A stretch of DNA of 64,000 nucleotides, from NCBI GenBank assembly GCA_030407315.1, contig JALQPE010000284.1:1-64000 (forward strand), given 5' to 3'. Under the pieces are notes generated by a model. That model was not told the DNA's origin. It was given only the letters and a program-made list of their open reading frames with translations, and ran no database searches. Every line of letters starts with the position of its first letter. Position 1 is the stretch's first letter. The translations under genes and the position numbers were made by a program. This document shows positions 23,899 to 51,976 of the stretch, piece by piece. The stretch comes from Asparagopsis taxiformis (lineage: Eukaryota; Rhodophyta; Florideophyceae; Bonnemaisoniales; Bonnemaisoniaceae).

Positions 23899-25174
23899 GT
23901 GCCTGAGCCGGACGAAGGGAATATGCATGCTGAGGGTGATCATGTATCTGTGGGACCTGCCGTAGAGGCCGTTGAAAACGAAGGAGCTGGAGGAGTAGAT
24001 GAGATCCAGCCGTCAGGGAGGCCCGAAGTCGATCGCGTGAGACTCACTGGAGTAGCTGAACCTAGAAGCAGATCCTTTCCAGTTCACTACGTATGGGATT
24101 CTGGAGCGCCTAGGTCGACTGGAACTACTAGAGAACGTTGCTGTGGACGATGTGGCAGTCGTTCGCATACCGTTTCGAGATGTCCATTGACTGATTGGAC
24201 TCTACGCGTCCTGTACTGCAAGTTCTGTGGGTCAATCCTGTTCGGAAAAGAGTCGGAAGGTGTATGCTGTGGCGGAAGCAGTAGATTTGCTGGGATCTCA
24301 TTCCGACGACGCCACACGAATGAGTCACTCAAAGAGCTGTACTCATGGCGATCTATGCGCAAGAGCTCCGTGCAGATTAATTCTCTCTTTGCTACTGTCT
24401 TGACATTCATGGACATGAAGTATGTAAGAGGCGGAGGTCCATCATTCCTACATCTCCACGGAAATGCCGCAGTAGCTCTCCCACTGAAGGACAACAACCG
24501 TTACACCTTTCTGTGGTCAAGCGAATTAGGGCCCAGCTTGCGGCAAAATGACTATAGGTCCTCACTGATTAGGAATGCAGTCGTTGACGGAAGTGTTATG
24601 CACGCTGTACGAGTTCTCTAGCGGCATATGGACCCGAGGCCTTCTATAATGCGTGAATCTTATCGTTCACTGTTTCAAAGAGGCAGTTCCTTCACTGAAT
24701 TGCAGACAAACGTGCAAGGAAGCGATGTTGAAATATCTCCTGACTCTGTCGGAAGTGATGGCATCTCCGTGCGGAACTTCACAGGGAGACACGTTGGAAG
24801 CGTAGAGACCGAAAGAGCAAGTGGTCCACTCGATGAAGAAAACCCAGGAATGCCAACATATCTACAGGCGTACACAGTTCAACAGAATGGTCTTTTCTCG
24901 ACCCAAACGCCCATGGCACAATTAGTTGGAGGGAGTGACACAACGAGGGAAGAAGGAGGAGGAAGAGTTGTAAAGTACCGAACTCTAAAACCCTCTTCAC
25001 GAATCGCCGAAAAAGGTGCATTCCCGCTTCTGTACCCCTACGGAAGAGACCAAGAGCCGTTTGATATGGATGTCTACCTGAGGGCAAAGAGAAACCCTTC
25101 GTCTTCTGGAGATGAAGTGAAAAAGAAGCTGGAGCGAATGACCTGGGCGGAAAATGTCAAAAGACGCCTTTATA
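23899..25174 (+). pseudogene. Helitron Rep protein, N-terminal part
   Basis: The frame starts in a GTG at 23,899; the first ATG is at 23,923. It has a Cys-rich segment (CCGRCGSRSHTVSRC…LYCKFCG…CCGG) and a block RKSSVQINSLFATVLTF…GGGPSFLHLHGNAAV, which matches the N-terminal region of Helitron Rep/helicase proteins. The later GAFPLLYPYGRDQEPF also fits. One in-frame stop (TAG 24,619-24,621) splits it. At 25,174 the 26.8-kb insertion cuts the frame, and it resumes at 51,977. Confidence 0.82.
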
Positions 25175-28100
25175 ACACTGATTTCCAGTAATTCAGAAAA
25201 AAATATTTATATCAGAAAAGTTCAAAAGTCTGGATTTATGTTTGCTGTTGGTAAAGGGCTAATTGGAGCCTCATTCTAGCGGGTGGATATGATTTGAGCG
25301 CTTTTTGAGCTTTTAAACAGTTTATATGGATTCTGTTCTGCCTCAGTTGGTATCATGACGATGGGACACGTGTCCTATATGTTGTGGGTAGCTTCTGGAC
25401 AAGCTGCAATCGGTACGCACTGCGAGAAACTAAAGAGGACAGCTGTCTCTAGGAAGCGTTCACTTCATGAGTGCACAATGCCTAGCTCAAAGGTAAGCTT
25501 CTTGTAGTAACGATTTACCTGAAATCGCTATTAAATTTCTGCTGTATTTAATGCTTGCCGAAAGCCCCTCCCAGCCAATCGACTCGTTTTCCTTCATAGT
25601 TACATCCAAAAATCAACCCCCAACTACCCAATAAAAAATTCAGCAGCAGCGAATCTCATAATCTACTCGCCCACTTCGCACTGTACATTACGATACTTTA
25701 CGAAATACTATGGTCCTACTGGCTCATATGACCACACGTTGCACACATGGCACGCTCAGTTGTACTTGGCCATGTGCCGTGCAACTTCCCTAGCAACCGC
25801 TGCACATGGCCATTTCAGTAGTGTACAGAGAAGTAGAGGGAGAATGGTGTATGGACAGGGTGCTCTTTCTGCAGTTGCGACACTATAATCCAGTCCTGTA
25901 AAAGTGTATTCAAGCCTAGATAGAGATGCGAATACGGTAGTTATGAGGACATGCTACACTACCATAGTATGTGAGAGTGTATGGGTATATTGGAATGGGA
26001 AATATTTGGGGATTGCGAGCCAAGACTTGCCTGCTCTGGCAAATACAATTCCGGCCGATCGGATACACGCGCGCGAAGCGCGCGCCAGTGCGTAGAGGGT
26101 ACTTTTCTCGGTTCAACGATACGCATGAACAGGACATATCTCCAGATTCTTTGTGAAGATTATGAGATATCATGGCGACATGAACGCTAAGAATGTCCAC
26201 TGAGAGAAGTAAGCGTATCCCAGCACACTCAAATATACGCCTCGTGCACTGTTGAGACTTCCCGAAAGCACGCCGGTTCCCTGGGAGCAGCTTCGCGAAG
26301 TGGAGGCCTTTATCACATCACGAATGTCAAACGATTTGTTAGCCAAGTTTCGCATGTTCTCGAACAAGTCTCACAGGCGCAACGGGGCAACAATGATGGG
26401 GGAACGAAGCGTGCTTGTCGTCATTTTCGTCGCATAGGACTGCCAACTTGTGACGATGAAGAACCTCCGCTCCATTATCTGGACCATGTCAAGAAACTTG
26501 AGTCACTGGAGGCGATCTGTATGGAGCTTTACGCCGACCGCGAAAATAATTCTGTGGCAGATTGTTGTTACGAATCCAAGCCCTTGCGAGACACTCCTTT
26601 CACCAACAGCCTTTCATACTGACCTTTCTACCTTGTTCTCTCAATCATGGCTACTCTCCACCGCGCAGCTCCTCAACTGCTTCCCGACACCATCGACTAA
26701 TGTAGCCAACGTCAAATGCTCACAGCGGAACTATTTCTATCTTTCATCAATGAGTTTGTTATACTACAAAGGTCCTCAGCGATTTGTTACTATATGGCTC
26801 CAGATTTGAACATGTTCAGCACAGTGATATTAGCGGGCGAGAGCTAGACGAAGGTGATGGTGATGGGAATGAATTGGTGAATGGCCAATATTCTCTGTCT
26901 TTTTGGAGATATGACTATGTGCTATGTGAATTGCAAAGTGGATTAGTGGAGTAATGTCACCCATTTTAACCGGGAGCGAATATGTCGAGGTGCAACCATT
27001 GACAAAACAATCGTCAGCAAGAATCGAGGTGGAATGGCGCGACTATAGCTCGATGGAGGGCCAAAGCGGCAGTGCAGATGTCTCACGGACGGTCCTCACA
27101 TCTCAATTGATGAAGGGATGATAATGTAATCGTTCATGGTCCGATTGCTGTAAAGTCGCCGCTTCGCTCCCATTATGTTTGCGCGATTGCCGTACAAGCA
27201 TGACGCCAATCTTGAGATTTTACCACTGGCAAGATTGAATGGGCAGTATACAACTATTTCACCTCTCAATCAATTGCAGCAGGAAGGATTAGCACCCATC
27301 GAACAAGCATACGACAATCGTCGCGAGACGCTGAATCGGATCAATGAGCATCTACTATGTCAGGGTGCGTTGAAAGAAATGAATGTTGACTTTGTGGACA
27401 ATTGTGAGTGTATTTGATTGCAGTGCATATGGTTGAGGCGCTCAGGAGAGGCACTGACTTGTACCATAACCAGTATCCTTATCCGTGGTATGAAGCTGAA
27501 AAACGCGGACTATTCGCGAACTAGGTGAACTAATTGTACATCTACCGGCACTGCTTTATTCTTTCGCTGAGAAGATTGATTACTCAAGTTGAGTGGAACC
27601 CTTCGTCTCATCGTGGATCGCAATGTCGCTAACCAAATCCCATCGAAGAACAACGTGAATGTACCATTCAAAGACATGTCTCACTCGAACTGCTGTGGTG
27701 TGATGAGAAGCCTTCAGTTCTCGACGTTTGTTATTTCCACCCATTCTATTGTACTGTCTGCAGGGGGATTTTCAAGATTTAATTGATTCATCCGTGCAAG
27801 TCTGTTAAGATGAACTCGTCCAGTGTCGATATTCTTGTCACCGCTGCACACAAGTCGCTAGTATCCAAACTGTCCTTGCTTTCGGCAAATTTTTCAAATG
27901 ATCAATATGCTCCGGGAAGTGAAGAAGGTACCTCAACAGAGTTTTGGATTGATATCGCGTTGCGCTGGGGAGACTATGATTCGCATACCGCTGAAAAGTA
28001 TTCCAGAGCAAAATTTCACGACTATGAGACCGACGACATGACGATAGATATGAAAGTCTGACAGGATTGCTGATCGCAGCGATCGCGGCTGTCGACATTG

Positions 28101-28817
28101 TCAAAAGAAAAAACAAGCGATAGAGCACGCAGAAGCGACTAGGCGCATCTGGGATAGTCTTCATTAGACTTTGGGGTGGGCAGGAGGATTATGACACAGT
28201 CTGGGTCGATCACTGCAAATGAGAAGGCATGAATGTACATCCCACGCGTGACGACACAACTCCTCTTTGTATGCCATTACTAAGGTACAAAGATGAATTG
28301 TCTAGCGTCATACCTGACGCGCCATCGGTGCGTCTTACATACTCACTGCTGCAATCTAACAGTTTCGCTCACGTGTAAAGACTTCATCCACCATACGATC
28401 GAACCTAGTTACATAGGGCTGGTGGTGTGCTCACGCGATGTATTTTTTTCCAAAGGGCTTTGTAGGAATGCCAGAGGTGAATTGGTGTCACAAAGAGATG
28501 TGATGTGTAGCATAGGTGCGGCGTCTGCTTTCTTTGCGCTGAACGACCAAACCATGACTTCCCATCCCGGCACCACGCACGCATATATCCGCCGTGCACA
28601 TCCTCACCTCTTATGAAACTCGTCTCATTGTTACCAGCCCATCTATGGATACTGCAAAATCTACGCCTCGCTTCGAACAACGCCAAGCGCGTTCGAGATC
28701 GCCGAGCGCCACTGCTGATTCGGACGATGGTTCAGCGCACATTTCTAATCCAGATAGCGATTCTGGCGTATCTAAACCTGCTCAGTTTCCTAAGAGATTG
28801 ATGCACAACTATTTTCA
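25175..28817 (+). repeat. Left terminal inverted repeat arm
   Basis: This 3.64-kb arm is mirrored by 35,864-37,193 joined to 49,659-51,970. Positions 25,175-27,490 pair with the right arm as x and 77,146-x. Positions 27,500-28,817 pair as x and 64,681-x. Only a few differences are visible, for example A7 versus A6 near 25,196 and one base near 27,213. The arm contains the 480-bp repeat (25,502-25,985), a GC palindrome near 26,070 and the PRP8 fragment. The match breaks up after the TTCA at 28,814-28,817. Confidence 0.93.
26130..28061 (+). pseudogene. PRP8: Captured PRP8 (U5 snRNP core factor) fragment
   Basis: Conceptual translation gives, in PRP8 order, IMRYHGDM…LKYTPRALLRLPESTPVPWEQLREVE (26,148-26,310), CDDEEPPLHYLDHVKKLESLEAI…SKPLRDTPF (26,450-26,620), [19 protein letters not shown] (about 26,970-27,030), YKHDANLEILPLARL…LIEQAYDN-type block (27,193-27,400), QYPYPWYEAEKRGLF (27,470-27,520), LRLIVDRNVANQ…NVPFKDMSHSN (27,600-27,700) and IHPCKSVKMNSSSVDIL…WIDIALRWGDYDSH (27,786-28,000). 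PRP8 is the most conserved spliceosomal protein, so the match is clear. Stops, shifts and large internal deletions make it a pseudogene. It lies inside the TIR arm and is copied in the other arm, so the element captured it from the host. Confidence 0.9.
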
Positions 28818-28870: not shown

Positions 28871-31510
28871 TCAGCTCAGGCATTGCCGTATCTTATTTAT
28901 TGTACGAGTTCCAATCTTGTTAGAACTTGAAAGCCGATGGAAGTTTACATGGACACTCTCCACGGGGACTAAATCGACCCAAGGTACACTACTGTTCCCC
29001 TTTTGTATGAATGAAGGTGCGTAAGACCCTGAGTATGCTGAGGTCCCTTTCCGCAATTCCCACCAATGCACTTCCAGCTTAGATACATTTCCAGCCTCGC
29101 TCCGCACCACATTTCTGATGTTTCCGAGCCAGAAAGGAAGGATAGCTGACTGTTGCTCTCCTTTCACTACCACGAATGTATTGATTTCATATTCGAGATC
29201 CTGGAAGGCTTCTGCTCTATCATGGTGATCTCTTTCTTCGTTATAGTCCTCTCCAGTGTTGTCAGTCCTGCAGATAGAATTTGCGAGTTCAAAACATTCT
29301 CGAAGGTTCCAATGAAATGAGATATCCCTAGATTGATACACTTGGTCCCTTAGATGTCTCAGTTTCTGCATTTTTGCCGGGTCATTGATCCGTGTCTCTT
29401 CAGATTGAAGTCTCTTATTAACCTCTATGTAGTTAGAAGGAGCAACTACTGAGGTGGGTGGGGTCTTGTGTAAGCTAGGAACAGACTTAAGAAAGCCTGA
29501 ATCGCTGTCATTCTCTAGAAGCGGTATCCAGTCGTCGTCACTGTTAGTCTTCACACAGCACTTTGTACGGAAGTATCTTGTCGTATTATTAATATCTGAA
29601 GCATTTTGTGTCGCAAACTCTGGAGAAAGCTCAGAAGATGTGTGATTAAACTTGAAATACCTAAAGCTAGTGAATCGCTTCACTTTCTTCAAGCAGTTAT
29701 CTTGTTTGCACAGGCCCGAGAAATTGATGATATTGGACATATTGTTGACAACAGGAGAGGGTGTGTAGGCAAGCTGGAGCTGTCTCATCAAGTCCTGCAT
29801 CGTAATTGCGTCGTTTGTACGTAGGCGTCGTGATGTACAACTAAATGTTTGGTCTATATCGGTGTGAGTATGCCCGATTGGTAAAAATGAAGCGTGGACT
29901 TCTCTGAAGACACCCCAAGAGAAAAGAGATTCTAAATAAGCAAGCAAAAAGCTGTTCTTATTCTCTCGAATACAGTTATCAAGCTGTACGTAGAGCACAG
30001 GTGGGAGCGATGGATATGAAAGTGTCTTCATTTGAATAGTACGGTGCAAAGCTTCGATAATATGATTTGCCCCCGTCTCAAACTCCTCTGTGAGTGTGTA
30101 AAGTGATAAATGCTTGACACTACCATGTTCCAATACCCCTACGAGCTTCACCTTGAGAGAATGACCTTTTGTATTCTTCGTTGAGAATGTAAAATGTGGA
30201 AGGCCGAAAGACGACTGGTCGGCACCGTCAACAATCAGAGACATGTACTGCGAGGGGTATAAGATAGATTGTTCGCATTTTCGCAAATATTCTTGTCTCT
30301 CACGTGAAACCATTTCATTATGTTTACGCTTCGCTTTCAGCACATCTTCTGATTTTCCCTTATCGGTCCCAGCCCGGTTCAGGGCCGAGCGGAATGACTC
30401 ACACTCATGGCAGATGGTAAAGCGATGGACTTTTCGGATCTTGAGGTTTGGAACATAAAGCTTCCATGTCTTGTAGAAATAGATTCTTGAAGGTGGCTTG
30501 GAGTTGTATATTTGCTCGAACTCTGTCTTGAACCAGTCATACACTTGCCCCTTCTGGAAGAAAGGCAAATGGTGTTCTGCAGAGTCGGGCATTTGGTCTC
30601 CAGTACTTTCCGACAGTCTCTTTAGGAAGGTAATGATCCTCTCCCTGCCATCAGCCACAGTGGTTCCACCAACTCCAGTTATACGCATAGTTTTTCGACT
30701 CATGGGTGTTCCCTTTACAGAACATTGAAGATCAGTAGAGAAACCGAAACATTTATCAAGGAAACGGCTGCAAACGCGATTCTTGTTAAAGTAAAATGCA
30801 TTGGTGCTGGTGTCGAGCATCCTCTGAAGATAATTCCTCCTTTCATACTGTTTCATCAAGAGAACTTTTGAAAGTTGTGACGCCAGGAAACGTTGGTCAA
30901 CTTTCTGAAGACATTTTATCCTTTTACAGCACTTTTCTTTGGTGAGTATGTTCATCAAATGACTCTGGTCGTCACCACGAACTTGAATTGTGTGAGAAAA
31001 TGGGATGATTAAATCCCTTCCAATCCCTGTTTCCTTTGCTTCCTTCTTCCGGCGCTTCCGCAAGTCCGAATCCTCATCTTCTGCAGGAACCCTAGCCTTG
31101 AACGAGTACTTTCTCTTTCCTGTTTCGACATTGAAAGGAGGGTAATGTGGGGATTTATTGAGATCGTTCTCTGTACTGTCATTTCCCTCATCAATCGAAT
31201 GTTCATCCATGCAGTTTTCATGCGCAGCTGATTCGAGCTCATCATATGTGGGCGAGCAGAAAAGATCATAATTCTTGGGGTTCGCAAAATAACTTTCAGA
31301 GAGCTCATCATAGTTAGCTTCCGAGATTGACATTGTAGACCCCTCTGATGAAGTCATGTATTCATCTGAACCGTGTAATAGATGCGGCAAGAATGAACGA
31401 CAATTGTTCAATTTATGAGAAACTGGTTTCTGGGAGTTGCACAGTTCTCCGAGTGGGGATGATCTATATCGTTCTGTGGCTGAATATTGAATGTATGTTA
31501 ACGGAAACAT
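28871..31510 (-). CDS. DUF7869-like protein, candidate transposase
   Basis: ATG at 31,510 gives 879 residues with one uninterrupted frame to TGA 28,871. The N-terminal third is acidic with a basic cluster (LRKRRKKEAK). A CHEC pair (CxxC) lies near residue 367. The core has SLIVDGADQ (Asp428/431), YVQLDNCIRENKN (Asp511) and FLPIGHTHTDIDQTFS (Asp551/553). The last two match, as far as I recall, the DUF7869 family of uncharacterised eukaryotic proteins. Spaced acidic residues in strand-like contexts suggest an RNase H-like DDE/D fold, hence a possible transposase (inference). It is the only gene in the element that looks able to act on the TIRs, and it lies divergent to the ParB-MTase gene with a 1.2-kb gap. 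Its last codons overlap a sequence repeated at 35,586-35,673. Confidence 0.65.
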   Translation of the reverse strand: MFPLTYIQYSATERYRSSPLGELCNSQKPVSHKLNNCRSFLPHLLHGSDEYMTSSEGSTMSISEANYDELSESYFANPKNYDLFCSPTYDELESAAHENCMDEHSIDEGNDSTENDLNKSPHYPPFNVETGKRKYSFKARVPAEDEDSDLRKRRKKEAKETGIGRDLIIPFSHTIQVRGDDQSHLMNILTKEKCCKRIKCLQKVDQRFLASQLSKVLLMKQYERRNYLQRMLDTSTNAFYFNKNRVCSRFLDKCFGFSTDLQCSVKGTPMSRKTMRITGVGGTTVADGRERIITFLKRLSESTGDQMPDSAEHHLPFFQKGQVYDWFKTEFEQIYNSKPPSRIYFYKTWKLYVPNLKIRKVHRFTICHECESFRSALNRAGTDKGKSEDVLKAKRKHNEMVSRERQEYLRKCEQSILYPSQYMSLIVDGADQSSFGLPHFTFSTKNTKGHSLKVKLVGVLEHGSVKHLSLYTLTEEFETGANHIIEALHRTIQMKTLSYPSLPPVLYVQLDNCIRENKNSFLLAYLESLFSWGVFREVHASFLPIGHTHTDIDQTFSCTSRRLRTNDAITMQDLMRQLQLAYTPSPVVNNMSNIINFSGLCKQDNCLKKVKRFTSFRYFKFNHTSSELSPEFATQNASDINNTTRYFRTKCCVKTNSDDDWIPLLENDSDSGFLKSVPSLHKTPPTSVVAPSNYIEVNKRLQSEETRINDPAKMQKLRHLRDQVYQSRDISFHWNLRECFELANSICRTDNTGEDYNEERDHHDRAEAFQDLEYEINTFVVVKGEQQSAILPFWLGNIRNVVRSEAGNVSKLEVHWWELRKGTSAYSGSYAPSFIQKGNSSVPWVDLVPVESVHVNFHRLSSSNKIGTRTINKIRQCLS

Positions 31511-32692
31511 TTTGAAGAGCTCAGTGATGATGGATAGATCGTACAGCGCAAACAATTGAGAACCTATTCATGCATACTGATATTCAGTTGAAAGCAGACA
31601 AACCTTTTCTAGAGCTTACCTATGGCGATATGTTTCATATGTGAAGATGAATTCATTGTATACAGATTGTTGTTTGACCTGGATCGTGACACGTTATTCA
31701 TCGATATCTCATAACTTCATACCAAATACCGATTCCGATATGATACTAGGGTCAAATTTACAGCTTTTATATGAGCATCCGTGCTGCTGTCTCCGTGACT
31801 TCTTCTGTTCGTTATTCATATTGGCTTTTCGATTGTTCTGTACACATCACTGATGGTTCTTTCTCAATGAGCTGGCACTCGTCACATTTCTGCCAAGTGA
31901 TGAGAATCACTCCACGGCGGATATGGAAGTAGTTTCTCCGCGTATGAGTCACATTTCATCATTATGTAAAAGTCATGTGACTACCACTTTGTCTCACTGA
32001 ATGAAACTGACGAAGATATGAAATAAAACTTGTTCGAGGACTCCTGTATACAATGTGATACAGCTGGTATGTCAACTGTCACATTTTTGGCAACTAAAAT
32101 ATTGACCTAGCCACTGAGAATTACCAATCACAATACTCCACTCAAGCAAATTGTATTGCATGTATGTTGAAAAGTATGGCCCGATAGTGTTAATCGTATG
32201 GCAGCTTCGCAATCTAACCTCTTCAACACTGTTCTATCCTTCTAGAGCTTGAGGAGAACTAATTTTTTACCGTTAACAAAAACTAATCACTTTGACAGGT
32301 GATCCTGGAATCGTGAACGACAGAGACGCCGTATGTGTTTTCTTGTGTGTTTTCTTGTAATACTTTCCAGACAGTATCAATCAGGCCCTCGAAGCTCGCC
32401 CATCGCCTAGGCTAGCCTAACCAACAGCTGTTGGTCAAGCTTCAGGTCGTCTCCACAGGAATCTTTCCACTGCGCACCAAACTCACAATATCATTTTCGT
32501 CTGGGAAAGCAACTCTGTGGTCCTGATTTATGTTTGTGCCCGATTTTGTTTGTGATCTGGTCTTACTAAAGATATTATGGGTCGGAACACATGTGCCACC
32601 AGAGAAAGACCTTCCTCACCGCCAAGAACAAAACAGGTTGAAATGGCAAAAGCTTTATTCGTGGATATCATGGAGGGTTCTAAAACTGTTCG
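31511..32692. promoter_or_regulatory. Divergent intergenic region in the TIR element
   Basis: About 1.2 kb between the 5' ends of the DUF7869-like gene (minus) and the ParB-MTase gene (plus). It is AT-rich, with no long frame. It should contain both promoters and perhaps an upstream exon of the ParB-MTase gene. I see no specific motif to report. Confidence 0.45.
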
Positions 32693-35503: not shown

Positions 35504-35585
35504 CGATTTCCTCTACTTCGGAATGGTGGTCTAAGGTAATTCATGCACAGTAACTAATCGAGTTCATCCAAAAGAGGAACTGTCA

Positions 35586-35673
35586 TGTACCTTGGGTCTA
35601 TTTAGTCCCCGTGGATAGTGTCCATGTAAACTTCCATTGGCTTTCAAGTTTTAGCAGGATTGGAATTCTTACG
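35586..35673 (+). pseudogene. Duplicate of the 3' end of the DUF7869-like gene
   Basis: About 88 bases match the last coding stretch of the DUF7869-like gene (28,901-28,988, minus strand). This fragment is on the plus strand beside the right arm. It shows that the inverted repeat once reached further inward than the well-matched arms, and that the inverted duplication that formed the arms included the 3' end of this gene. Confidence 0.8.
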
Positions 35674-37876: not shown

Positions 37877-37877
37877 T

Positions 37878-37890
37878 TGGTCTCTCGACC
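37878..37890 (+). promoter_or_regulatory. Candidate primer-binding site
   Basis: TGGTCTCTCGACC starts one base after the 5' LTR and opens with TGG, the complement of a tRNA 3' CCA end. The tRNA species was not identified. Confidence 0.55.
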
Positions 37891-37953
37891 TAGAACCTTG
37901 TACCCTCGGGTAAGTCTCTTTGAGAGAAATTTTCCTTCACAATCATCTTCACG

Positions 37954-40252: not shown

Positions 40253-43200
40253 CGGCAATCCTCTTCGGATAAAAGGCAAGATAATACTGTCCTTACAGTT
40301 AGGCCACAAGTCCTTTGAGGAAGAATTCTTCGTCGCGCCTAAGTTGGCCGTACCCCTCATCTTGGGAACTGGGGCAATGAATACCCACGTAGACGCAATT
40401 AGGTGCCGGGCCCAACGAATTGATATTCACGACGGCGGGTCGATAGCTATCCTAGTGATGTCGCCTACGCGTAAAACATCCCCCACCCTTTCGTGCTACG
40501 TGGATGCCTCGCGACCCTCTAATGGGATTAACTTAGACCGCCAGCCTCATGGCATTCGATTGTCACAAAGTGTGAATGTTCCTCCGCGGAGTCAAGTAAC
40601 AACTACTGTTGTATGCGCCGGTGGCGGCTTGAGTATACTCTCTCCGAGAGATCGGATCCTTCACCGACATCGTGTCTCTATCCCGAATGGGGTTGCGGAA
40701 GTCATCCCGCGACAGGAATTCCTGACTATATTAACTAACTTCGGTACATCCGACAAGTACCTCCCTAAAGGGACAATTATAGGCTATGCCCTTCGGGCAC
40801 CCGAACGGCCAATGCGCCCCATGGCTCTCAGCCGTTCTACCCCTTCCTCCCAAGAGGCCTCCACTATGGTGACTACTCTCCCTCAGGAGCAAGAGGCCGA
40901 GGCCACCCAACCATCAAGCTGGAAGCAAGAAGTCTCTCTGGACCACCTTGGTCAAATCCCGTTGAGGGAACGCATCCTTAGCATGCTATCTCGACACGAG
41001 TCTATGTGGGATGGATCCCTAGGGGACATCCGCGCTACGGAACACCGAATCGACATAGTCGAAGGGAGCAAGCCTAGACGGCAACAACCCTACCGGATGG
41101 GACCCGCTCGTCGAGAGATTGCCCGTAAGGAAATAACCAGCATGCTGGAAAAAGGAGTGATCGAACCGTCGACCTCCGAATGGGCTAGCCCAGTGGTTCT
41201 TGTCCCGAAGAAGGATGGTAAATTACGCTTTTGCGTCGACTATAGGGGTCTTAACGACATCACTGTCAATGATGTGTACCCCCTTCCACGAATGGATGAT
41301 TGTATTGACTCCCTCGGAGATGCTCAAGTATTCACCACATTGGATTGTAATTCTGGCTATTGGCAGATCCCTGTTGCACAGGACGACCGTGACAAAACGG
41401 CATTCACCTCCCACTTGGGGACATATCGCTTCAAGCGTTTGCCTTTTGGCTTAAAGAATGCTCCGGCAACGTTTCAGCGTGCCATCGACATTATTCTTAG
41501 CAGCGTTCGCTGGCAGACCTGTCTGATTTACTTAGACGATGTGATCGTATTCTCTCGGGACGAGGCCGAACATCTCCACCATGTGGACCAAGTACTCTCC
41601 CTCCTACGGGAAGCAGGTGTCACCCTGAAGTTGACAAAGTGTCATTTCTTCGAAAAGAAGGTTGATTACCTGGGACATGTCGTGATGCCAGGAAAGCTAG
41701 CTGTTGCACAGAACGCCACTTCGGCTATCGCTGACGCGATCTTTCCGCAAACGCCTACGCAAATGCGATCCTTCCTCGGAAGCTGTGGCGTCTTTCGACG
41801 ATTCATCAAAGGGTATGCCGCAATTGCGCACCCCTTGAACGAAATGCTGACCAAAGACAGCCTCCCTAAATTCGGGAAAGAACCTCCTACCGAGGACCAA
41901 CAGCGCGCGTTCAACGCTCTCAAAGAGGTCATGATCAAGCCGCCGATACTGGCTCTACCCAAGTTGGGTCAACCCTACACCGTAGACACGGACGCTTCCG
42001 CATACCAAATAGGATGCGCTCTGCTTCAGCAGCAAGGGGAAGAGAACGATCTCAAGCCAATTGGCTATTGGTCGCGGACCTTGACTAAACCTGAAAGAGG
42101 TTACTCCCCTACGGAGCGTGAATGTCTAGCCGTCGTATGGGCTGTCACTATCCTACGTCCATACTTGGAGCAAACAAAGTTTGTAGTCCGGACGGACCAT
42201 AACGCGCTGCGTTGGCTCATGAATATCAACGACCCTTCAGGGAGACTATGCCGTGGGCGCCTCCGACTTGCGGAATTTGACTATCAAATAGTCTACCGAC
42301 CCGGTCGGGTTCACCAACTACCAGACGCCCTTTCGCGTGTTGAAACTAACGGCGAGACGCCCGTCACTATTGACGATGAAATACCAACTCTGTTGGCCAC
42401 GCACGCACCGCTAGGTGAAACATCCTTGGATGATGACACTGATGTTTGGTTCTACGACCTTTCTCTAGCAAGAGACCACGCCAAGGAGGCGCCTAATCGC
42501 AACGGTACACCCGTCTTAACAACCCATCCGCAAACGGAAAACTACTGCCCGATAACTCTCCAAGAGTGGCTCGAAGAGCAAAGAACGGACGACTTCTGCC
42601 AACAGGCCCTGGCCTCGCAGAAGTCTGACTCTCTCTTCTTCGAAGATGAAGACGGTGTCCTTTGTAGGAAGTCCAGACTGGATGGGTCATCCCAAATCGT
42701 AGTACCTAAAGCCTTACGGCAACGTCTATTGACGATGTGCCACCACGGCATATTGGCAGGACATCCGGGACAGAATCGCATGTATGACACGATGCGCCTA
42801 TCTTACTACTGGCCTGCAATGGCTGCGGACATAACCGGAACGGTTGAACGCTGTTCAGCGTGTGCGAGAAACCGATTACGGTTGCGCAAACATGCGAGTA
42901 CCCTCCAGCTGTTCCCAGCTACCACACCATTGGATGACGTTGCAATTGACCTCCTCGGTCCTCTACCTCGTACCAAGAAAGGTAACGTGCACCTACTGGT
43001 GATTTCATGTCGCTTCTCCAGGCTCACCCAAGTGGTGCCCCTGCGAAGCATTACGGCTTACCATGTGGCAGTAGCCTTTTGTACACATTGGGTGTTTAAG
43101 TATGGTCCTCCACGGACATTACTATCCGATAACGGTCCGCAATTTGCGTCGAAGTTCTTCCAGGCTGTCTGCCTCCAGTTAGGAACGAAGAACGTCTTCA

Positions 43201-44924
43201 CGACGGCATACCATCCCCAGACAAATGGGCAAGTCGAACGGTATAACCGTACTCTATTGAGCATGCTACGTAATTACGTAAATGATAACCAGGACGACTG
43301 GGATGTCTACGCATCAGCGTTAACCTATGCGTACAACACGCACGTGCATCGCACAACGGGAACTACACCCTTCGACCTCATCCTAAGCCGACCTCCACCG
43401 CCATATGCGACACACCATTCGGTGAAAAGGAGTGCAACGCCAGACGCGTTCACGAAGCAAGACTTCTTACGCCGTATTACGGATACCATTGATATGGCAG
43501 GTAAACGCCTTCACAGCGCGCAAGCACGCTACAAGCGTAACTTCGACCGGTCAATCCGGAAGTCTAAACGACTCATCACTACCGATGATTACGTTTATCT
43601 GGATAATCCAGAAGTCCGTGAACGGAACAAGCTAACTCCAATAGCTCAAGGTCCCTATAGGGTTATCCGTGCCGGACGGCGAACGGTTTACATCGACCGC
43701 GATGGTATCACCGAAAAGGTTAGTCTCGATAGAGTTGCACTCGCTCCGCGACCAACCGAGGAACCAACCTTGCCACCTAGGCCACAGTCCGTTAACGCAC
43801 AAGCGTCACCATCAGGTGCAGACGCCCTCGCGCCGAATACACAACCACGCCAGCCGCCGGGCGACGGCCAACAATACGCGCCAAACAAATCACCTTCACC
43901 AACTCCTAATCAGGAATACCCCTTCAGGGATCAACCATCGTCTCCACGACAACCTACAATTAGGATAACACCTGAAGGTAGTGGTTTGGGACAAACCACC
44001 CTTCAGGAGGGGGCCCCCGACGCTGTGCGCGTAAGCAAAAATTTTGCAACTCCCTCTCGGGATCAACCTTGTAGTCTTTCACCCTTCGGTAACTCACCCA
44101 CAATTGGGAACGACGCACACGACCCAAGTCGTTCACCCACCCAGCCGGTAACTACCAACCGCAATCGCACACAATTGCGAAGAAGTCAACAAAGACGCCA
44201 TGACAACTCTGCCAATGCAGACCAAGACCAAGACGTCAACCCAGACCGGGCTCTTACATCGCACAAGCGAACGTTGCGACAAGACACGACAAATGTCGAC
44301 GCTGCTGAAGCCGCCCGAAGACGTTCAAACCGCACAATTGCGACGAGAGGACAACCATCCAGGTCATGCGTACAGACGCCGAGTTCCCCTCAACGGGACG
44401 CGAACGCTCCATCGGGAGCCGAACTTCACATAGCGAACCAAGCAAGTCAAGCACCCGCCCATTTGGCAATACCCAAACCGGGTCGACAAACTCGCTCAAG
44501 CGCGAAGAAGAAGAAAGCCACGGCAAACCCCGTAAGGTCTTTGGAAACCACCCCCAATGGGGAACAAGAGAAAGCGCCACAGGGTACGCAGCCGAACTCG
44601 GAACGAGTAGCTCTCCCTGAAGGGACGAAGGAAACCCCAGAGGGAAGTAGCGACGCCGAACGCGCAACCTCAGAGGAGGAATATCCCATCGATGATCTCC
44701 TAGATTACGTCACTGACGACGACGGGGAACAATGGTTCCTGGTGAAGTGGTATGGCTACCGAAAGCCGACATGGACGCAACGCGCGAACGTCCCCCCTGA
44801 ATGGGCATCAAGGTACTTCCGTCGAAGACAACACCGCGAAGGTGACAGGCAACCACGCCGAGCGCGCACGCGCAAACCCAAGAGAGGGAAGAAGATGCGT
44901 AACCCCACAGGGATAAGAACCTAA
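40176..44924 (+). CDS. Gypsy pol: RT, RNase H, integrase, chromodomain
   Basis: 1,582 codons. The first residues are the second half of the protease (…LILGTGAM…). Reverse transcriptase follows (VLVPKKDGKLRFCVDYR, LDCNSGYWQI, LPFGLKNAPATFQ, and YLDD near residue 452). RNase H has DTDAS near 605. Integrase has an H-H-C-C zinc domain (HHGILAGHPGQ…CSACARN, about 855-900) and a D,D-35-E core (VAIDLLGPL, LSDNGPQF, TNGQVERYN, about 921-1020). A long Pro/Ser-rich linker leads to a C-terminal chromodomain (YPIDDLLDYVTDD…WFLVKWYGYRKPTW, about 1500-1550). Chromodomains guide integration to particular chromatin. The TAA is at 44,922. RT, RNase H and IN appear catalytically complete. Confidence 0.96.
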   Translation: MKGAYPNNWEQFQVPTGKVPQLADANGNPLRIKGKIILSLQLGHKSFEEEFFVAPKLAVPLILGTGAMNTHVDAIRCRAQRIDIHDGGSIAILVMSPTRKTSPTLSCYVDASRPSNGINLDRQPHGIRLSQSVNVPPRSQVTTTVVCAGGGLSILSPRDRILHRHRVSIPNGVAEVIPRQEFLTILTNFGTSDKYLPKGTIIGYALRAPERPMRPMALSRSTPSSQEASTMVTTLPQEQEAEATQPSSWKQEVSLDHLGQIPLRERILSMLSRHESMWDGSLGDIRATEHRIDIVEGSKPRRQQPYRMGPARREIARKEITSMLEKGVIEPSTSEWASPVVLVPKKDGKLRFCVDYRGLNDITVNDVYPLPRMDDCIDSLGDAQVFTTLDCNSGYWQIPVAQDDRDKTAFTSHLGTYRFKRLPFGLKNAPATFQRAIDIILSSVRWQTCLIYLDDVIVFSRDEAEHLHHVDQVLSLLREAGVTLKLTKCHFFEKKVDYLGHVVMPGKLAVAQNATSAIADAIFPQTPTQMRSFLGSCGVFRRFIKGYAAIAHPLNEMLTKDSLPKFGKEPPTEDQQRAFNALKEVMIKPPILALPKLGQPYTVDTDASAYQIGCALLQQQGEENDLKPIGYWSRTLTKPERGYSPTERECLAVVWAVTILRPYLEQTKFVVRTDHNALRWLMNINDPSGRLCRGRLRLAEFDYQIVYRPGRVHQLPDALSRVETNGETPVTIDDEIPTLLATHAPLGETSLDDDTDVWFYDLSLARDHAKEAPNRNGTPVLTTHPQTENYCPITLQEWLEEQRTDDFCQQALASQKSDSLFFEDEDGVLCRKSRLDGSSQIVVPKALRQRLLTMCHHGILAGHPGQNRMYDTMRLSYYWPAMAADITGTVERCSACARNRLRLRKHASTLQLFPATTPLDDVAIDLLGPLPRTKKGNVHLLVISCRFSRLTQVVPLRSITAYHVAVAFCTHWVFKYGPPRTLLSDNGPQFASKFFQAVCLQLGTKNVFTTAYHPQTNGQVERYNRTLLSMLRNYVNDNQDDWDVYASALTYAYNTHVHRTTGTTPFDLILSRPPPPYATHHSVKRSATPDAFTKQDFLRRITDTIDMAGKRLHSAQARYKRNFDRSIRKSKRLITTDDYVYLDNPEVRERNKLTPIAQGPYRVIRAGRRTVYIDRDGITEKVSLDRVALAPRPTEEPTLPPRPQSVNAQASPSGADALAPNTQPRQPPGDGQQYAPNKSPSPTPNQEYPFRDQPSSPRQPTIRITPEGSGLGQTTLQEGAPDAVRVSKNFATPSRDQPCSLSPFGNSPTIGNDAHDPSRSPTQPVTTNRNRTQLRRSQQRRHDNSANADQDQDVNPDRALTSHKRTLRQDTTNVDAAEAARRRSNRTIATRGQPSRSCVQTPSSPQRDANAPSGAELHIANQASQAPAHLAIPKPGRQTRSSAKKKKATANPVRSLETTPNGEQEKAPQGTQPNSERVALPEGTKETPEGSSDAERATSEEEYPIDDLLDYVTDDDGEQWFLVKWYGYRKPTWTQRANVPPEWASRYFRRRQHREGDRQPRRARTRKPKRGKKMRNPTGIRT

Positions 44925-45204
44925 CAAGGTACCCACTGGGTGGAGCTACCAAACCTCGGAGGGTCAAGCCAAAAAGGGCGCACTTTATCACCGCCAACCG
45001 GAGCCATTGCGGAAATTAAGATTTTCAGGAAATGAAAAAATTGCCAAAAAAGGGTCTCAACAAACAAATCCGCACGTCAGCGTGATGATGCATCTTTAAT
45101 GTACCTCAGAGGTGCCTCAGGACTACCTGATGAACAATGGCGCAACGCAAAAGCGTGTTCAAACTATCGTTAGAGGTTATTCTCCCAAAGGCAATTGCCA
45201 GTCC

Positions 45205-48200
45205 TTAGCGACGATAATGGCTAGAAGGCCGAGGCCGATGAGAGGCAGACGGTGCCGTAGGGGCAGGAGCGCGTACATTCGTCGAAGGACGAGGATGGCG
45301 GGGTGCAACCCTTGCGAAGGTAGGATTACGACGCAAACCGCGTTGCGGAACTGCACTAGAACCCCGACGACGGGCAGGCACAGGGCCATGCGAAGACGCA
45401 ACCGCAGAGGCGGATAACCCAACTGCTGGGATGGACGCGGGAGGCGGAGAAACATCTGGCGACTCAGGCGACCCTAACCGGGCATCAAGACGCGCAAGTA
45501 AAGGATTACTAGCATCCGCAGCACCCACGGGGGAATGAAGACGAGTACGCACGTTGCGTTCGGGAAGACCCTCATCGGGAGACCTAGCGCGACGACGCGA
45601 GTAACCAGGCTGAACTGCCTCCTCGCCACCCTCTTCGGGAATAACTGCTTGCTGCAGTAGACGCCTGGCGTCCTCCAACTCACCTTCTAATTCCCCAATC
45701 CGGGTTCGCAATTCTGCTGCCTCCAGGCGTGCGGCCTCAACCTCCCTATCCGCTGTGCGGCGACGCTCTCGGGCGATGTTACGCTGTTCGCGTCCTTGCT
45801 TATAGCGAGCAGCTAACGTGATGCACGACAATGCGAGTCCATCCAACGCGGATCTTACGATGTAACGCCCATTGGCAGAGGCAAAAATGGAAGCCACCGT
45901 ACCATCCCCGAGATCATCGGCCAACCGCCGCACATGCGGAATCGATAGCAATTCGCGACTCGACAATTCCCCACGTAGGATATCAACAGCAGGAGGCTGA
46001 CGCGTGACTACATCATCACCGTTCACGGATGGCTCAGAGCCTTGGTCGGATGTCAGAAGCGCCTCCATGGCGGGACCCACTTGGGATGAAGGGGCAGCTG
46101 TAGGCTGAGGGGTTGGCGCGGTAGGCGCGACGGTCATCGGGACCTGACTTTCGTACAAGTCATCAGCACCACTGGGTGGTAAGGAAGCAACGGGAGCGAA
46201 GCTCCGTCCTGCGTAAGGCGAACGCCCAGCTGGGCCCCCCGCCTCGGCGGCCGTCCACCACGGACGCGGCACAAATGCCTCGCCAACAGGCTGATATTTG
46301 TAAGAGTCGGGGTGACCGTCGGAATACCTGTCAGGCTCCACGCCGTAATACCCATCTTCGGTGAACTCACCATCTCTGCGATAAGGCGGCAGCTCTGCGA
46401 CTGTACCATCTCGATGGTTTAACACGTTAATACGTAACGCCCTCACCGGCAAGTCAACAGTCCTGTAGATAACCACCTTCTCCGGTGCCACTCCCGTGAT
46501 GTTGGTACTGACCAATTCCTGCGGATAATCATCACCCCCAAGGGCCACCTTCAGCAACCGACGCACTACCGAACCAGGTAACTCCCGACTATAGGGGACC
46601 ACGTCCGACACCGGAACCTTCGGGATATCGTACCAAGTACTGCTCACCCTATTGAGGAGTTCCTCCGCCATCACCAGCACAAACCCCCGCGTCTCGGCGG
46701 TACGAGCCAACTCGATACCTATAAGGATATCCCTCTCCAACTCGAGGTACGATCGGAACCTGTCCATTCGCCATTCGGGCGCGTCGCGAAGAGCGGAATT
46801 GTGGAAATACACCAGCGACGGAGGGTCGGCAACGGGCAAACACATCGGTGGAGATGACTTGCCTTCCCAAGTGGGATCATCCCATAGCGGGTCCAAATCT
46901 TCCCTAGCTACCTCCATGGGTCTAGTGGCCGGCTCAGCAGAGCTACCATGACGGTGCGCGAACACGCGATAATCATTCGCCGTCACCTGACGCCCCATCC
47001 TTCGGGAAGTAACCCTAGCGTGCAAACGCATATGATGCTCGTAGCTACCCGTATCGGGACGTGGAGGGTACGCAAACCAGCGTGACCGAACCATCGGTAG
47101 ATCCGCTACGGAGCCTTGGTACGATTCCTCTTGGAACAAGCGACGATTCATACGTTCGACGTAAAGCGCATCTCCGGGATGGAGCAGGAAAGTCCTGTCG
47201 CTACATAGCGTATGGGGGACACGGAAGTGACGCATAGGGCGACTCGAAGGGAGACGGGAGTAAGCCGACCAACATTCGTTTTGAACCTGATGGTTTTGAC
47301 CCCGGAGGGAGCCCATGAGAAGCATATCGCGACGTAACTCGCTTCTCGGGCGATCCGTAAAGTCCCTACGAGGGAGTCGCGCAAACGGGTAGTGTTCCCA
47401 AGGAGCGGCGAGCTCACGCCTGAAAGGCAAGGCTTGCGAGTCGAATACCACCAGTTCATCAGCATTGGCTGGGTAGAATTCTCCCATGGAGCGCCAATTG
47501 GCAGTCGGCTTAGGTGCCCGAGGGGGAGTGTCGTGTGACGGAACAGCTGGTGCTGGAGCAGACGCAACCGCGTAAGGGTCAACTAGGGCGGTGCCCGACG
47601 GTCTTACGCCTACAGAGGCATCGGCGGCAGCCGCACCAGACCCACTTCGGGTAACTCTGCCAGTAGAGGCATATGGGTCTATGACCTTCTCGACAGGTTG
47701 AGCATTAGCCTTTTCGGCTGCTGCCTTCTTGGCTTCTGCTCGAGCAGCCTCGCGGCGCAACTCTTCTTCCCTACGCTTTCGAGCGTCCGCCAGTATCTGT
47801 TGGTTGCGGCGGCCATAGTCCTCATAGGGATTCGCTGAAGCGTCATGACCAGAAGAGGTACGAGCCGCCGGGGCGGAAGGACGAGAAGTAATCGGACGCG
47901 AACTTGGCGAAGGCCTGACGTTCGGCTGCCTTGTTGGCCTGGGCGTAGCGCCTCCCTCGGCGACGACTTCTATCACCTCCTCGGTGTCGGCCGGCATGGC
48001 TCCCCTTGGAGACGGGCCGGCGGCCTTCGATGACTCACCTTCGCGTGACGGCGGATTAACCGATGACGGTTTGACACTTGCCACTGGGGTGGAAGGCTTC
48101 GGGGAAGCAGGCGATTCAGCCGGAACAGAGTCGCGCTCTTGTGCGCTTGCCCTGGTAGGGGGGACCGTCTCTTCGGAACGCGCTTGTGTGTTCACAACCT

Positions 48201-48576
48201 TGCCAGCAGGCGACGCTGGATCAGCGGTGCCTTTGGCGGCAGTCGAACGCGTTCGCGTTTGCGATTGAGCCGCGGTGGCTGACGGCACGCGTGGCGCTGA
48301 AGTCGACGAAGACTTAGCCGGTGTAGGCGGAACCCCGGTGCGGGAGGAGGAAGCCTAGTGGCGCGTCGTGGGACGGCGAACGCTGGAGCGTGTGGTAGGA
48401 CGGTTGGGCGAACCCATATTGTCTCCTTCCTCTTCAGAGGATTCGAATTGAATCGGAGCACGAGGGGTCATCCTAAAAGCCAGTAGAGGCGATGACGGAC
48501 GTTGATAAAAACCCTGAAGCGGGACGAACAAGTAGCCTATTGGCTTAAGTCTCCGGGAGGGAGCTGCGCTATTCAA
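45205..48576 (-). CDS. Large antisense ORF in the gypsy element (unknown)
   Basis: A minus-strand frame lies between pol and the 3' LTR. The upper part (48,576-48,358) has a Met start (MNSAAPSRRLKP…). An in-frame TAG (48,355-48,357) separates it from 1,027 codons down to 45,205; the first Met after that stop is codon 98 of the lower part. If the TAG is read through or is an error, the protein has about 1,120 residues. It has a low-complexity N-terminal region, an Arg/Glu/Ala-rich helix (EDYGRRNQQILADARKR…), a compact middle (NWRSMGEFYPAN…YPFARLPRRDF…) and a C-terminal coiled coil (RNIARERRRTADREVEAARL…LEGELEDARRLLQQ). No known domain is recognised. Extra antisense frames are known in some gypsy lineages. 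Confidence 0.75.
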
Positions 48577-48609
48577 CCCAGGAAGGGGGATCGCGAGGCA
48601 ATGGGCCGA

Positions 48610-48958
48610 AACGGCGAATGCAAGCCTCGAATTGGCACCGCTCGTGCGATCACGCGGCTAATTATTTAGCAGATGGACGCAAAAACCCTTTGAGGGATAA
48701 TGGAAAGGACGCGAATGCGTGGACGCAGTTGGACACCGAAGGGGTGAATACGCTGTGTTGCGTTAGGGCGATGATGAACCTGAAACAGGTATTGATTCCA
48801 ATAGGAAACGGTCGGGCGGAACTCGGGAAGAGTCGGATGGACAACACATTTAGTGTGCACGCGCCGCGCGCGGGAAAATTTTGAATTGCACAATGCAACG
48901 GCCACAGCCAAAAATTGTAATTTATTTGATCAAATTTTGTCGGGACGACAAATCTCTC
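48610..48958. other. Gypsy sequence upstream of the polypurine tract
   Basis: No gene. It contains the presumed promoter region of the antisense frame, since that frame starts at about 48,576 and reads away from the 3' LTR. Confidence 0.4.
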
Positions 48959-48967
48959 AGGAGGGGG
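48959..48967 (+). promoter_or_regulatory. Polypurine tract
   Basis: AGGAGGGGG just before the 3' LTR (48,971) is the expected primer for plus-strand DNA synthesis. Confidence 0.7.
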
Positions 48968-48970
48968 CCG

Positions 48971-49653
48971 TGTCGTACCGCCTGGCGGTCCTCGCTGATC
49001 GAGCCGTGTCGCTTCCCTATTGGGTACCCACTTACGGGATGTGCCAATCAGAAGGCACCAGCCAACTGGCGTGTTTCCTATACTTAGGACCAGCTATGGC
49101 TGACAAATAACCCCACCCGGGCCTATCGGCCCCGGCCAAGACCCCACAAGGGGCAAATTTTAACTTAGGCTGATCAGCCATACATTACAATGTAAGCCTA
49201 TTGGCAATGACCTCGCGGGTAGGCGAGCGCCAGTAATTGGGTTCTGATTGGTCACTAACTGGATATTTATTCCTAACCACTAACCCTAGCTTACAGTAGA
49301 CTTAGTATAAAACGGCCACTGGAATAGCCAGTAGGTACGGTTTCTAGAGTAACGTAAACTCAAGTGGAATTACGACCCACAGGAACAGTGTTCGCATACC
49401 TATTGTTCAACCCCTCTCCGGGAAAACCTTAGGGTTAGCCAACAGCTCGACGGATTACGTAATCTTGCTCCATTAATACGCACCTCGCGTGAGCGCTATA
49501 ATCGCACAACCCCCTCCGGGTAGCGATACCTTCTCTCTTACGAGACTACCCGCCGGGTACCTATAAGTTTCATCTGCTCTACCACTTCCTCTACCGAGGC
49601 TCGGGACACCTGTCGGGTGGTTTGCCGCTCTAGCGGATTTTCTACCTGCTACA
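48971..49653 (+). repeat. 3' LTR of the gypsy element
   Basis: 683 bases, 99.6% identical to the 5' LTR, ending CTGCTACA and followed by the TSD CATAC at 49,654-49,658. Confidence 0.97.
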
Positions 49654-49658
49654 CATAC

Positions 49659-51016
49659 CACGGATAAGGATACTGGTTATGGTACAAGTCAGTGCCTCTC
49701 CTGAGCGCCTCAACCATATGCACTGCAATCAAATACACTCACAATTGTCCACAAAGTCAACATTCATTTCTTTCAACGCACCCTGACATAGTAGATGCTC
49801 ATTGATCCGATTCAGCGTCTCGCGACGATTGTCGTATGCTTGTTCGATGGGTGCTAATCCTTCCTGCTGCAATTGATTGAGAGGTGAAATAGTTGTATAC
49901 TGCCCATTCAATCTTGCCAGTGGTAAAATCGCAAGATTGGCGTCATGCTTGTACGGCAATCGCGCAAACATAATGGGAGCGAAGCGGCGACTTTACAGCA
50001 ATCGGACCATGAACGATTACATTATCATCCCTTCATCAATTGAGATGTGAGGACCGTCCGTGAGACATCTGCACTGCCGCTTTGGCCCTCCATCGAGCTA
50101 TAGTCGCGCCATTCCACCTCGATTCTTGCTGACGATTGTTTTGTCAATGGTTGCACCTCGACATATTCGCTCCCGGTTAAAATGGGTGACATTACTCCAC
50201 TAATCCACTTTGCAATTCACATAGCACATAGTCATATCTCCAAAAAGACAGAGAATATTGGCCATTCACCAATTCATTCCCATCACCATCACCTTCGTCT
50301 AGCTCTCGCCCGCTAATATCACTGTGCTGAACATGTTCAAATCTGGAGCCATATAGTAACAAATCGCTGAGGACCTTTGTAGTATAACAAACTCATTGAT
50401 GAAAGATAGAAATAGTTCCGCTGTGAGCATTTGACGTTGGCTACATTAGTCGATGGTGTCGGGAAGCAGTTGAGGAGCTGCGCGGTGGAGAGTAGCCATG
50501 ATTGAGAGAACAAGGTAGAAAGGTCAGTATGAAAGGCTGTTGGTGAAAGGAGTGTCTCGCAAGGGCTTGGATTCGTAACAACAATCTGCCACAGAATTAT
50601 TTTCGCGGTCGGCGTAAAGCTCCATACAGATCGCCTCCAGTGACTCAAGTTTCTTGACATGGTCCAGATAATGGAGCGGAGGTTCTTCATCGTCACAAGT
50701 TGGCAGTCCTATGCGACGAAAATGACGACAAGCACGCTTCGTTCCCCCATCATTGTTGCCCCGTTGCGCCTGTGAGACTTGTTCGAGAACATGCGAAACT
50801 TGGCTAACAAATCGTTTGACATTCGTGATGTGATAAAGGCCTCCACTTCGCGAAGCTGCTCCCAGGGAACCGGCGTGCTTTCGGGAAGTCTCAACAGTGC
50901 ACGAGGCGTATATTTGAGTGTGCTGGGATACGCTTACTTCTCTCAGTGGACATTCTTAGCGTTCATGTCGCCATGATATCTCATAATCTTCACAAAGAAT
51001 CTGGAGATATGTCCTG
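49659..51016 (-). pseudogene. PRP8: PRP8 fragment, right-arm copy (5' part)
   Basis: Minus-strand mirror of 26,130-27,487, with the PVPWEQLREVE, DDEEPPLHYLDH and YKHDANL blocks. It was contiguous with 36,620-37,193 before the gypsy insertion. Confidence 0.88.
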
Positions 51017-51970
51017 TTCATGCGTATCGTTGAACCGAGAAAAGTACCCTCTACGCACTGGCGCGCGCTTCGCGCGCGTGTATCCGATCGGCCGGAATTG
51101 TATTTGCCAGAGCAGGCAAGTCTTGGCTCGCAATCCCCAAATATTTCCCATTCCAATATACCCATACACTCTCACATACTATGGTAGTGTAGCATGTCCT
51201 CATAACTACCGTATTCGCATCTCTATCTAGGCTTGAATACACTTTTACAGGACTGGATTATAGTGTCGCAACTGCAGAAAGAGCACCCTGTCCATACACC
51301 ATTCTCCCTCTACTTCTCTGTACACTACTGAAATGGCCATGTGCAGCGGTTGCTAGGGAAGTTGCACGGCACATGGCCAAGTACAACTGAGCGTGCCATG
51401 TGTGCAACGTGTGGTCATATGAGCCAGTAGGACCATAGTATTTCGTAAAGTATCGTAATGTACAGTGCGAAGTGGGCGAGTAGATTATGAGATTCGCTGC
51501 TGCTGAATTTTTTATTGGGTAGTTGGGGGTTGATTTTTGGATGTAACTATGAAGGAGAACGAGTCGATTGGCTGGGAGGGGCTTTCGGCAAGCATTAAAT
51601 ACAGCAGAAATTTAATAGCGATTTCAGGTAAATCGTTACTACAAGAAGCTTACCTTTGAGCTAGGCATTGTGCACTCATGAAGTGAACGCTTCCTAGAGA
51701 CAGCTGTCCTCTTTAGTTTCTCGCAGTGCGTACCGATTGCAGCTTGTCCAGAAGCTACCCACAACATATAGGACACGTGTCCCATCGTCATGATACCAAC
51801 TGAGGCAGAACAGAATCCATATAAACTGTTTAAAAGCTCAAAAAGCGCTCAAATCATATCCACCCGCTAGAATGAGGCTCCAATTAGCCCTTTACCAACA
51901 GCAAACATAAATCCAGACTTTTAAACTTTTCTGATATAAATATTTTTTCTGAATTACTGGAAATCAGTGT
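49659..51970 (-). repeat. Right terminal inverted repeat arm, outer part
   Basis: Mirror of 25,175-27,487, ending in the complement of ACACTGATTTCC and then the TSD TTTATA (51,971-51,976). It includes the outer PRP8-derived segments and the mirrored 480-bp repeat. Confidence 0.93.
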
Positions 51971-51976
51971 TTTATA

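Follow-up and report, generated by a model that had tools for sequence, protein, structure and literature searches.

What kind of mobile element carries a DUF7869 gene and a divergent DNA methyltransferase gene between inverted arms more than 3.6 kb long? The question is raised by a locus of the red alga Asparagopsis taxiformis within positions 1 to 64,000 of contig JALQPE010000284.1 (the window). The assembly (GCA_030407315.1) spans 141.5 Mb; this contig is C284 in it, and the other contigs are given C-numbers in the same way. The gene content also suggests a red-algal host, with ten matches to PF00504 (chlorophyll-binding) and 13 to PF00427 (phycobilisome linker). The element occupies 25174-51971 (Table 1) and measures 14,333 bp after subtraction of a nested Gypsy retrotransposon, so an initial annotation of this DNA was right to recognize a mobile element of about 14.3 kb with arms of about 3.6 kb, a DUF7869 gene and a methyltransferase gene. 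The likely answer is a DNA transposon of Sola type, most likely Sola1, that has been active recently: the DUF7869 gene would encode its transposase, the divergent gene a DNA methyltransferase that most likely acts on the element's own DNA, and the arms would be kept alike by conversion. Sola fits because the element combines a predicted DDD transposase with a 4-bp target site duplication (TSD); the narrower assignment to Sola1 draws on comparison with described Sola1 elements.

Ends, target sites and copies

The element is mobile. An A precedes ACACTG at all ends inspected, giving the terminus AACACTG; the initial annotation had correctly described mirrored ends but missed this outermost base. 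It had also proposed a 6-bp TSD, TTTATA, which is wrong: exact 4-bp duplications flank four of the six full-length loci (TTAT in the window, GTAT in C1591, ATAG in C2159 and GTTG in C403), and the longer repeat appears because the element's terminal A/T abuts TTAT. The remaining two loci lack a TSD (C786, CGTT/ATTT; C2815, AGCA/CAAA), and C1590 was not tallied separately, its flanks being those of C1591 save small length differences. The chance of at least four exact 4-mers in six loci is about 3.5e-9. An identical 30-bp flank lies to the right of C786, which has no TSD, and to the left of C2814, with the final two bases differing (AT vs GC); possible causes are recombination, re-insertion and assembly.

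The insertion target is a Helitron coding frame, with PF14214 in the open reading frame (ORF) starting at 51967. When the flanks are joined without the element and one TSD copy, the frame is open across the junction with no stop, as had been claimed from the window alone, and the corresponding empty site exists in the genome. At 12 places the 258-bp joined flanks align without a break, with at least 254 of the 258 bp covered and an identity of 91-100% (two each in C3022, C1097, C3021 and C2357, and one each in C268, C1000, C2358 and C895), some of which may be duplicate haplotypes. The other six of the 18 matches to this query comprise one in C2618 that covers 253 bp at 79% and partial matches, among them C341 and both flanks of the element in the window itself.

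A 332-bp query from the left end was matched 27 times across the genome, counting the two matches in the window; each reaches the same outer base, and they sit in many different flanks. Six other contigs hold full-length copies of 14,309-14,329 bp. Their ends are unchanged and the DNA of both genes is arranged alike, as the initial annotation would lead one to expect, but not every frame is open in the assembly. Length differences between arms are frequent and look like sequencing errors in runs, and many contigs with adjacent numbers resemble duplicate haplotypes (C1590/C1591, C2947/C2948, C2814-C2816).

Table 1. Coordinates of the element and its parts in the window (aa, amino acids; TIR, terminal inverted repeat; LTR, long terminal repeat).
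Feature	Coordinates	Strand	Remarks
Whole element	25174..51971	.	AACACTG...CAGTGTT, nested Gypsy included
Left TSD copy	25170..25173	+	TTAT
Right TSD copy	51972..51975	+	TTAT
Left arm (TIR)	25174..28817	+	3,644 bp
Right arm, inner part	35864..37193	-
Right arm, outer part	49659..51971	-	49654-49658 is the duplicated Gypsy target CATAC
DUF7869 (PF25273) protein, predicted DDD transposase	28871..31555	-	894-aa ORF from TTG, 879 aa from ATG; PF25273 E 2.9e-48
RNase H-like core (predicted)	29756..30247	-	residues 437-600; D443, D446, D526, D566 and D568 conserved
BAH-like C-terminal domain	28898..29203	-	residues 785-886
DNA methyltransferase fusion	32693..35503	+	936 aa as read in the window
ParB/sulfiredoxin-like N-terminal region (tentative, weak support)	32693..33082	+	WYGVVDGMHRL motif
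Beta-class N6-adenine/N4-cytosine (N6A/N4C) methyltransferase domain	34196..34960	+	DPPYG
C-terminal domain of ~100 aa	35156..35482	+	also N-terminal in some DUF7869 transposases
Decayed duplicate of transposase 3' coding end	35563..35672	-	copy of 28902-29011, 88% over 110 bp; just inside right arm
Nested Gypsy LTR retrotransposon, foreign to the element	37194..49653	+	12.46 kb; splits right arm

A predicted DDD transposase with a BAH-like tail

Structure prediction gives the DUF7869 protein the fold of an RNase H/DDD transposase, followed by a BAH-like C-terminal domain. In this model and in its conserved Asp residues it matches the DDD/E RNase H-like transposases, which supports the RNase H-like fold raised in the initial annotation. 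PF25273 was the sole family that it matched above the cut-off, and a sequence search of solved structures returned nothing for the single protein and nothing informative for its profile (best E 0.065). The transposase would bind the arms, its DDD core would cut at AACACTG and join the element into staggered 4-bp targets, and the BAH-like domain would bind nucleosomes at the donor or target. The phrase 'BAH domain' was in none of the matches listed from the open-licence PMC literature on Sola and DNA transposon transposases and on concerted evolution. A viral origin was considered and set aside: no relative of either element protein was confirmed in viral_contigs. Two distant DUF7869 relatives in genome_contigs lie in bins labelled 'Bacteroidetes' metagenome-assembled genomes (L040, L041) and are probably eukaryotic contaminants.

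The methyltransferase and a domain shared with the transposase

The catalytic domain encoded by the divergent gene belongs to the beta class of N6A/N4C methyltransferases, with a DPPY-type motif preceding the S-adenosylmethionine-binding motif and the PF01555 fold, and it is similar to restriction-modification methyltransferases. The N-terminal part contains WYGVVDGMHRL, which we take to be a ParB/sulfiredoxin-like motif. No ParB-family match was found in the methyltransferase N-terminus, where 4 of 15 members gave weak matches to DndB (best E 0.0084) and one matched GmrSD_N; in a fold search the matches listed were to the methyltransferase domain, so the N-terminal part is not represented there. 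NCBIfam added only methyltransferases and chance-level rows.

The initial annotation took the DUF7869 gene and a ParB-methyltransferase fusion to be the only intact genes. The pair is present, but the window's methyltransferase frame is disrupted close to the 5' end, reading 936 aa from GTG or 849 aa if the first ATG is used, and the ParB-like start is faintly suggested. Either a genuine mutation or an indel introduced by assembly could account for the break. The protein is 975 aa long from ATG in C1591, C2159, C2947 and C2814, and the frame is also interrupted in the copies on C1590, C403, C2815, C2948 and C2816.

The C-terminal stretch of about 100 aa of the window's methyltransferase matched no Pfam family at E 1 or better. 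A profile built from nine methyltransferase C-termini matched 10 of 75 DUF7869 proteins, starting at residue 2-58, with E values from 1.8e-26 (P0010) to 3.5e-13 (P0075), and the N-terminus of P0010 matched three methyltransferase C-termini by BLASTP (E 9e-20, 5e-17 and 4e-15). Nine of 16 methyltransferases have the domain, eight of these nine being profile seeds; P0084 was excluded from this count because it was mis-seeded and matches by construction. In P0010 and P0082 (both from contigs of length 8,748, probably one contig) the domain is on the transposase and not on the methyltransferase, whereas in P0003/P0077 (7,140) and P0008/P0079 (7,926) it is on the methyltransferase and not on the transposase; co-location within these pairs was judged from equal lengths alone, and a domain could be missed where a contig is cut. 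The domain thus recurs at the methyltransferase C-terminus and at the N-terminus of some DUF7869 proteins, and it is apparently new, an expression used here relative to open-licence PMC papers, with no search aimed at the ~100-aa domain or the 3.6-kb arms by name.

Concerted evolution of the arms

The inverted arms are near-perfect: 25198-27492 pairs with 49654-51948, and 27488-28113, 28103-28456 and 28444-28817 pair with pieces of 35864-37193. The Gypsy insertion between the two parts of the right arm has 683-bp LTRs that are 99.56% alike and a 5-bp TSD, CATAC. Among the 12 arms on the six other contigs, 11 show zero substitutions among themselves over 3,640 bp and the twelfth (C2815 left) has 6; the window arms are 23-25 substitutions from those 11 arms and 29-30 from C2815 left. 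The window copy is older than these other copies. In 21 alignment columns both window arms share a variant that is absent from all other arms with a base at that position, against only 7 substitutions that separate the two. Such sharing could not plausibly have arisen by independent mutation of each arm; the arms convert each other, or one was copied from the other. Such concerted evolution of the arms is apparently new. Conversion between arms, by a repair route that we infer, would keep the 3.64-kb arms alike. The copied stretch must once have extended further, since a decayed 110-bp duplicate of the transposase end lies inside the right arm.

In the left arm we found no direct repeat family and no ORF longer than 117 aa. 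ParB-type centromere motifs in the arms were considered and rejected: besides the missing repeat family in the left arm, no 5-8-mer exceeded the maxima of 200 shuffles. Outside the element, a 500-bp stretch at 22624-23121 is 79% like arm positions 325-809 and is perhaps the remnant of a related arm.

Distribution of the two gene families and the role of the methyltransferase

Each gene family occupies at least 150 places in the genome (from 502 candidates for DUF7869 and 2,605 for PF01555), a multiplicity that is apparently new. Relatives of both genes are also found in other arrangements, and those of the methyltransferase apparently in another element. Among the best 150 of the 502 DUF7869 matches, which do not include the window's own gene, 41 lie on contigs that also have methyltransferase evidence, 24 of them with that evidence within 8 kb. 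These 24 close pairs, among the matches listed, comprise 17 divergent pairs, four with the methyltransferase upstream on the same strand, two with it downstream on the same strand and one convergent; the last three may be nested insertions. The two lists were matched by eye, a DUF7869 place with no listed methyltransferase is no evidence of absence, and the methyltransferase evidence is the C-terminal domain alone in 5 of the 17 divergent and all four same-strand-upstream cases. Excluded from the pairing count were methyltransferase C-terminal-domain fragments of 31-34 residues about 1 kb beyond the DUF7869 domain (C613:66937, C593:18594, C645:24620), placed as if that family's arms reach into the methyltransferase 3' end.

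Two high-copy families have long methyltransferase frames, of 987 aa in at least 15 and 1021 aa in at least 12 of the best 50 matches listed. We read 3.5-4 kb 5' of the methyltransferase in one contig of each (C275 and C167); two contigs are a small sample, and a core may lie further away. In C275 a single ORF joins an N-terminal Cys-motif region (recognized by eye) in frame to a BAH-like region, and the window transposase used as a tblastn query matched over residues 790-875 and in one chance-level piece. In C167 residues 209-276 and 772-811 matched with nothing between, besides chance-level methyltransferase pieces. Apparently, then, each family has in its sole sampled contig a transposase gene without a catalytic core, which is also apparently new.

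The methyltransferase, with its N-terminal module of DNA-binding type, most likely methylates adenine or N4-cytosine in its own element. We prefer self-methylation because of that module, because the methyltransferase is kept in families seemingly without a transposase core and because a domain is common to it and some transposases. The mark would license or protect the element in cis, and possible benefits are replication coupling, an escape from silencing or help in directing the transposase. Among bacteria, adenine methylation couples IS10 to replication, and IS10 and IS50 are under Dam control. A fuller version, which we offer tentatively, is that this eukaryotic transposon would write its own adenine (or N4-cytosine) methylation as a cis-acting licence, on the model of those bacterial elements: the transposase could be borrowed in trans, the methyltransferase would have to mark its own element, the ~100-aa domain would be a mobile docking module tying both enzymes together, and the BAH-like domain would read chromatin. 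A transposase borrowable in trans would account for loss of the RNase H core, with retention of the methyltransferase, in high-copy families that are non-autonomous. In the tandem case C589 the methyltransferase frame closes with the C-terminal domain, and after a few hundred bases the transposase frame begins; tandems of this type would set the domain just upstream of the transposase start and offer a possible transfer route.

A possible but rather doubtful alternative is that the methyltransferase is a passenger useless for transposition, acquired once and persisting since the copies are young. Consistent with this, its relatives occur in more than one orientation, related methyltransferases seem to sit in another element, and most of the best 150 of 502 DUF7869 matches have no methyltransferase among the matches listed. 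Against it, two high-copy families have kept a long methyltransferase frame although the transposase gene seems to lack its core in the contig sampled from each, the two proteins have a domain in common, and 12 of 14 more distant relatives found by protein search are 844-1010 aa long. As to the other element, 78 of the best 150 PF01555 matches have equal score and commonly a 1,186-aa frame (L044 at C92:46600-50100; L028 in C2081). Upstream of such a methyltransferase, C92 has a 403-aa ORF and an antisense 453-aa ORF, with no DUF7869 match there, and in C2081 ORFs with the same ends as those of C92 come after a truncated element copy. In this genome the methyltransferases seem to travel with two or more kinds of mobile element.

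It is unlikely that DUF7869 elements form a separate superfamily, unrelated to Sola1, that has 4-bp TSDs and the same kind of methyltransferase by coincidence. The comparison with Sola1 by description, the arms longer than the reported Sola range and the fact that DUF7869/PF25273 was not named anywhere in the open-licence PMC literature searched all leave room for it; the DDD fold and the 4-bp TSD agree with Sola, and Sola1-1_Ec32 has the same unusual opposite-strand partner gene. That the methyltransferase belongs to a defence or addiction pair, shielding against a nuclease, is very improbable despite its resemblance to restriction-modification enzymes, as the element has no ORF of at least 150 aa besides its two genes and the Gypsy, and its two proteins matched no nuclease family. 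Lastly, an assembly or palindrome artefact as the source of the long arms is scarcely credible, for although some contigs are uneven in run lengths and some look like duplicate haplotypes, the end query reaches the same outer base at its 27 places in many different flanks and six other contigs hold full-length copies.

Other features of the window

Within the Gypsy, a 1,027-aa antisense ORF (45205-48288, minus strand) has no Pfam match. The left part of the window contains direct and inverted repeats of 92-95% identity (1-566/10806-11382, 562-3084/12675-15254 and 9450-10090/15886-15249), and nested inverted and direct repeats of 75-92% are clustered at 56590-57639.

Comparison with known systems

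DUF7869 (PF25273) gains a candidate enzymatic identity as an RNase H transposase that ends in a BAH-like domain, and an unexplained accessory gene of algal transposons becomes a testable system with young near-identical copies and known empty sites. If the methylation in cis is true, a eukaryotic transposon would write its own epigenetic mark.

Several other kinds of element were considered and rejected. Polintons/Mavericks, suggested by the supposed 6-bp TSD, have a 6-bp TSD, a protein-primed DNA polymerase and an rve integrase; the TSD here is 4 bp, and the two element proteins match neither polymerase nor rve families. Ginger, in which the transposase is an integrase of Gypsy type (rve), is set aside because, among the seven proteins scanned, rve was found only in the nested Gypsy and the transposase matches PF25273 alone. 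The 4-bp TSD also separates the element from KDZ (8 bp) and EnSpm (2-3 bp) giant transposons.

Fusions of a ParB-CTPase with an N6_N4 methyltransferase are described from phages (PMC12704722; phrog_67); they join a ParB fold to the methyltransferase family found here and differ in belonging to prokaryotic mobile elements. In tblastn against phage records the methyltransferase part alone was matched (best 12 of 36 listed).

The Sola superfamily is described as having a DDD transposase, a 4-bp TSD and TIRs of 11-1124 bp (PMC10741241); our element shares all three kinds of feature, with a predicted DDD transposase, while its 3,644-bp arms exceed the reported range and it adds the accessory methyltransferase and the BAH-like domain. 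SrosS, a Sola1 of Salpingoeca rosetta (PMC6875170), likewise has a 4-bp TSD but is 3,270 bp long with a 32-bp TIR. The Sola2-Fanzor elements DFa-1/2/3 (PMC3627910) also have a 4-bp TSD but carry Fanzor as the accessory gene and TIRs of 12-13 bp; in DFa-1 and DFa-3 most of the transposase region is gone and the accessory gene is kept, a parallel, together with trans-mobilized giant Ectocarpus elements, to core loss with retention of the methyltransferase.

The closest counterpart is Sola1-1_Ec32 of Ectocarpus, reported in 2025 (PMC12477816), a giant 21.5-kb Sola1 with a transposase and, on the opposite strand, a 1104-aa ParB-like N4C/N6A methyltransferase. Because it carries a ParB-methyltransferase opposite its transposase, the gene pair is not new, contrary to the initial annotation. 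The idea that proteins of this kind bind and modify the transposon encoding them was put forward there too, with reference to reports from green and red algae (Iyer 2011; Petroll 2025). With 14.3 kb and 3.64-kb arms in a red alga, against 21.5 kb in a brown alga, our element is best regarded as a striking variant within a known kind of transposon, and no new class.

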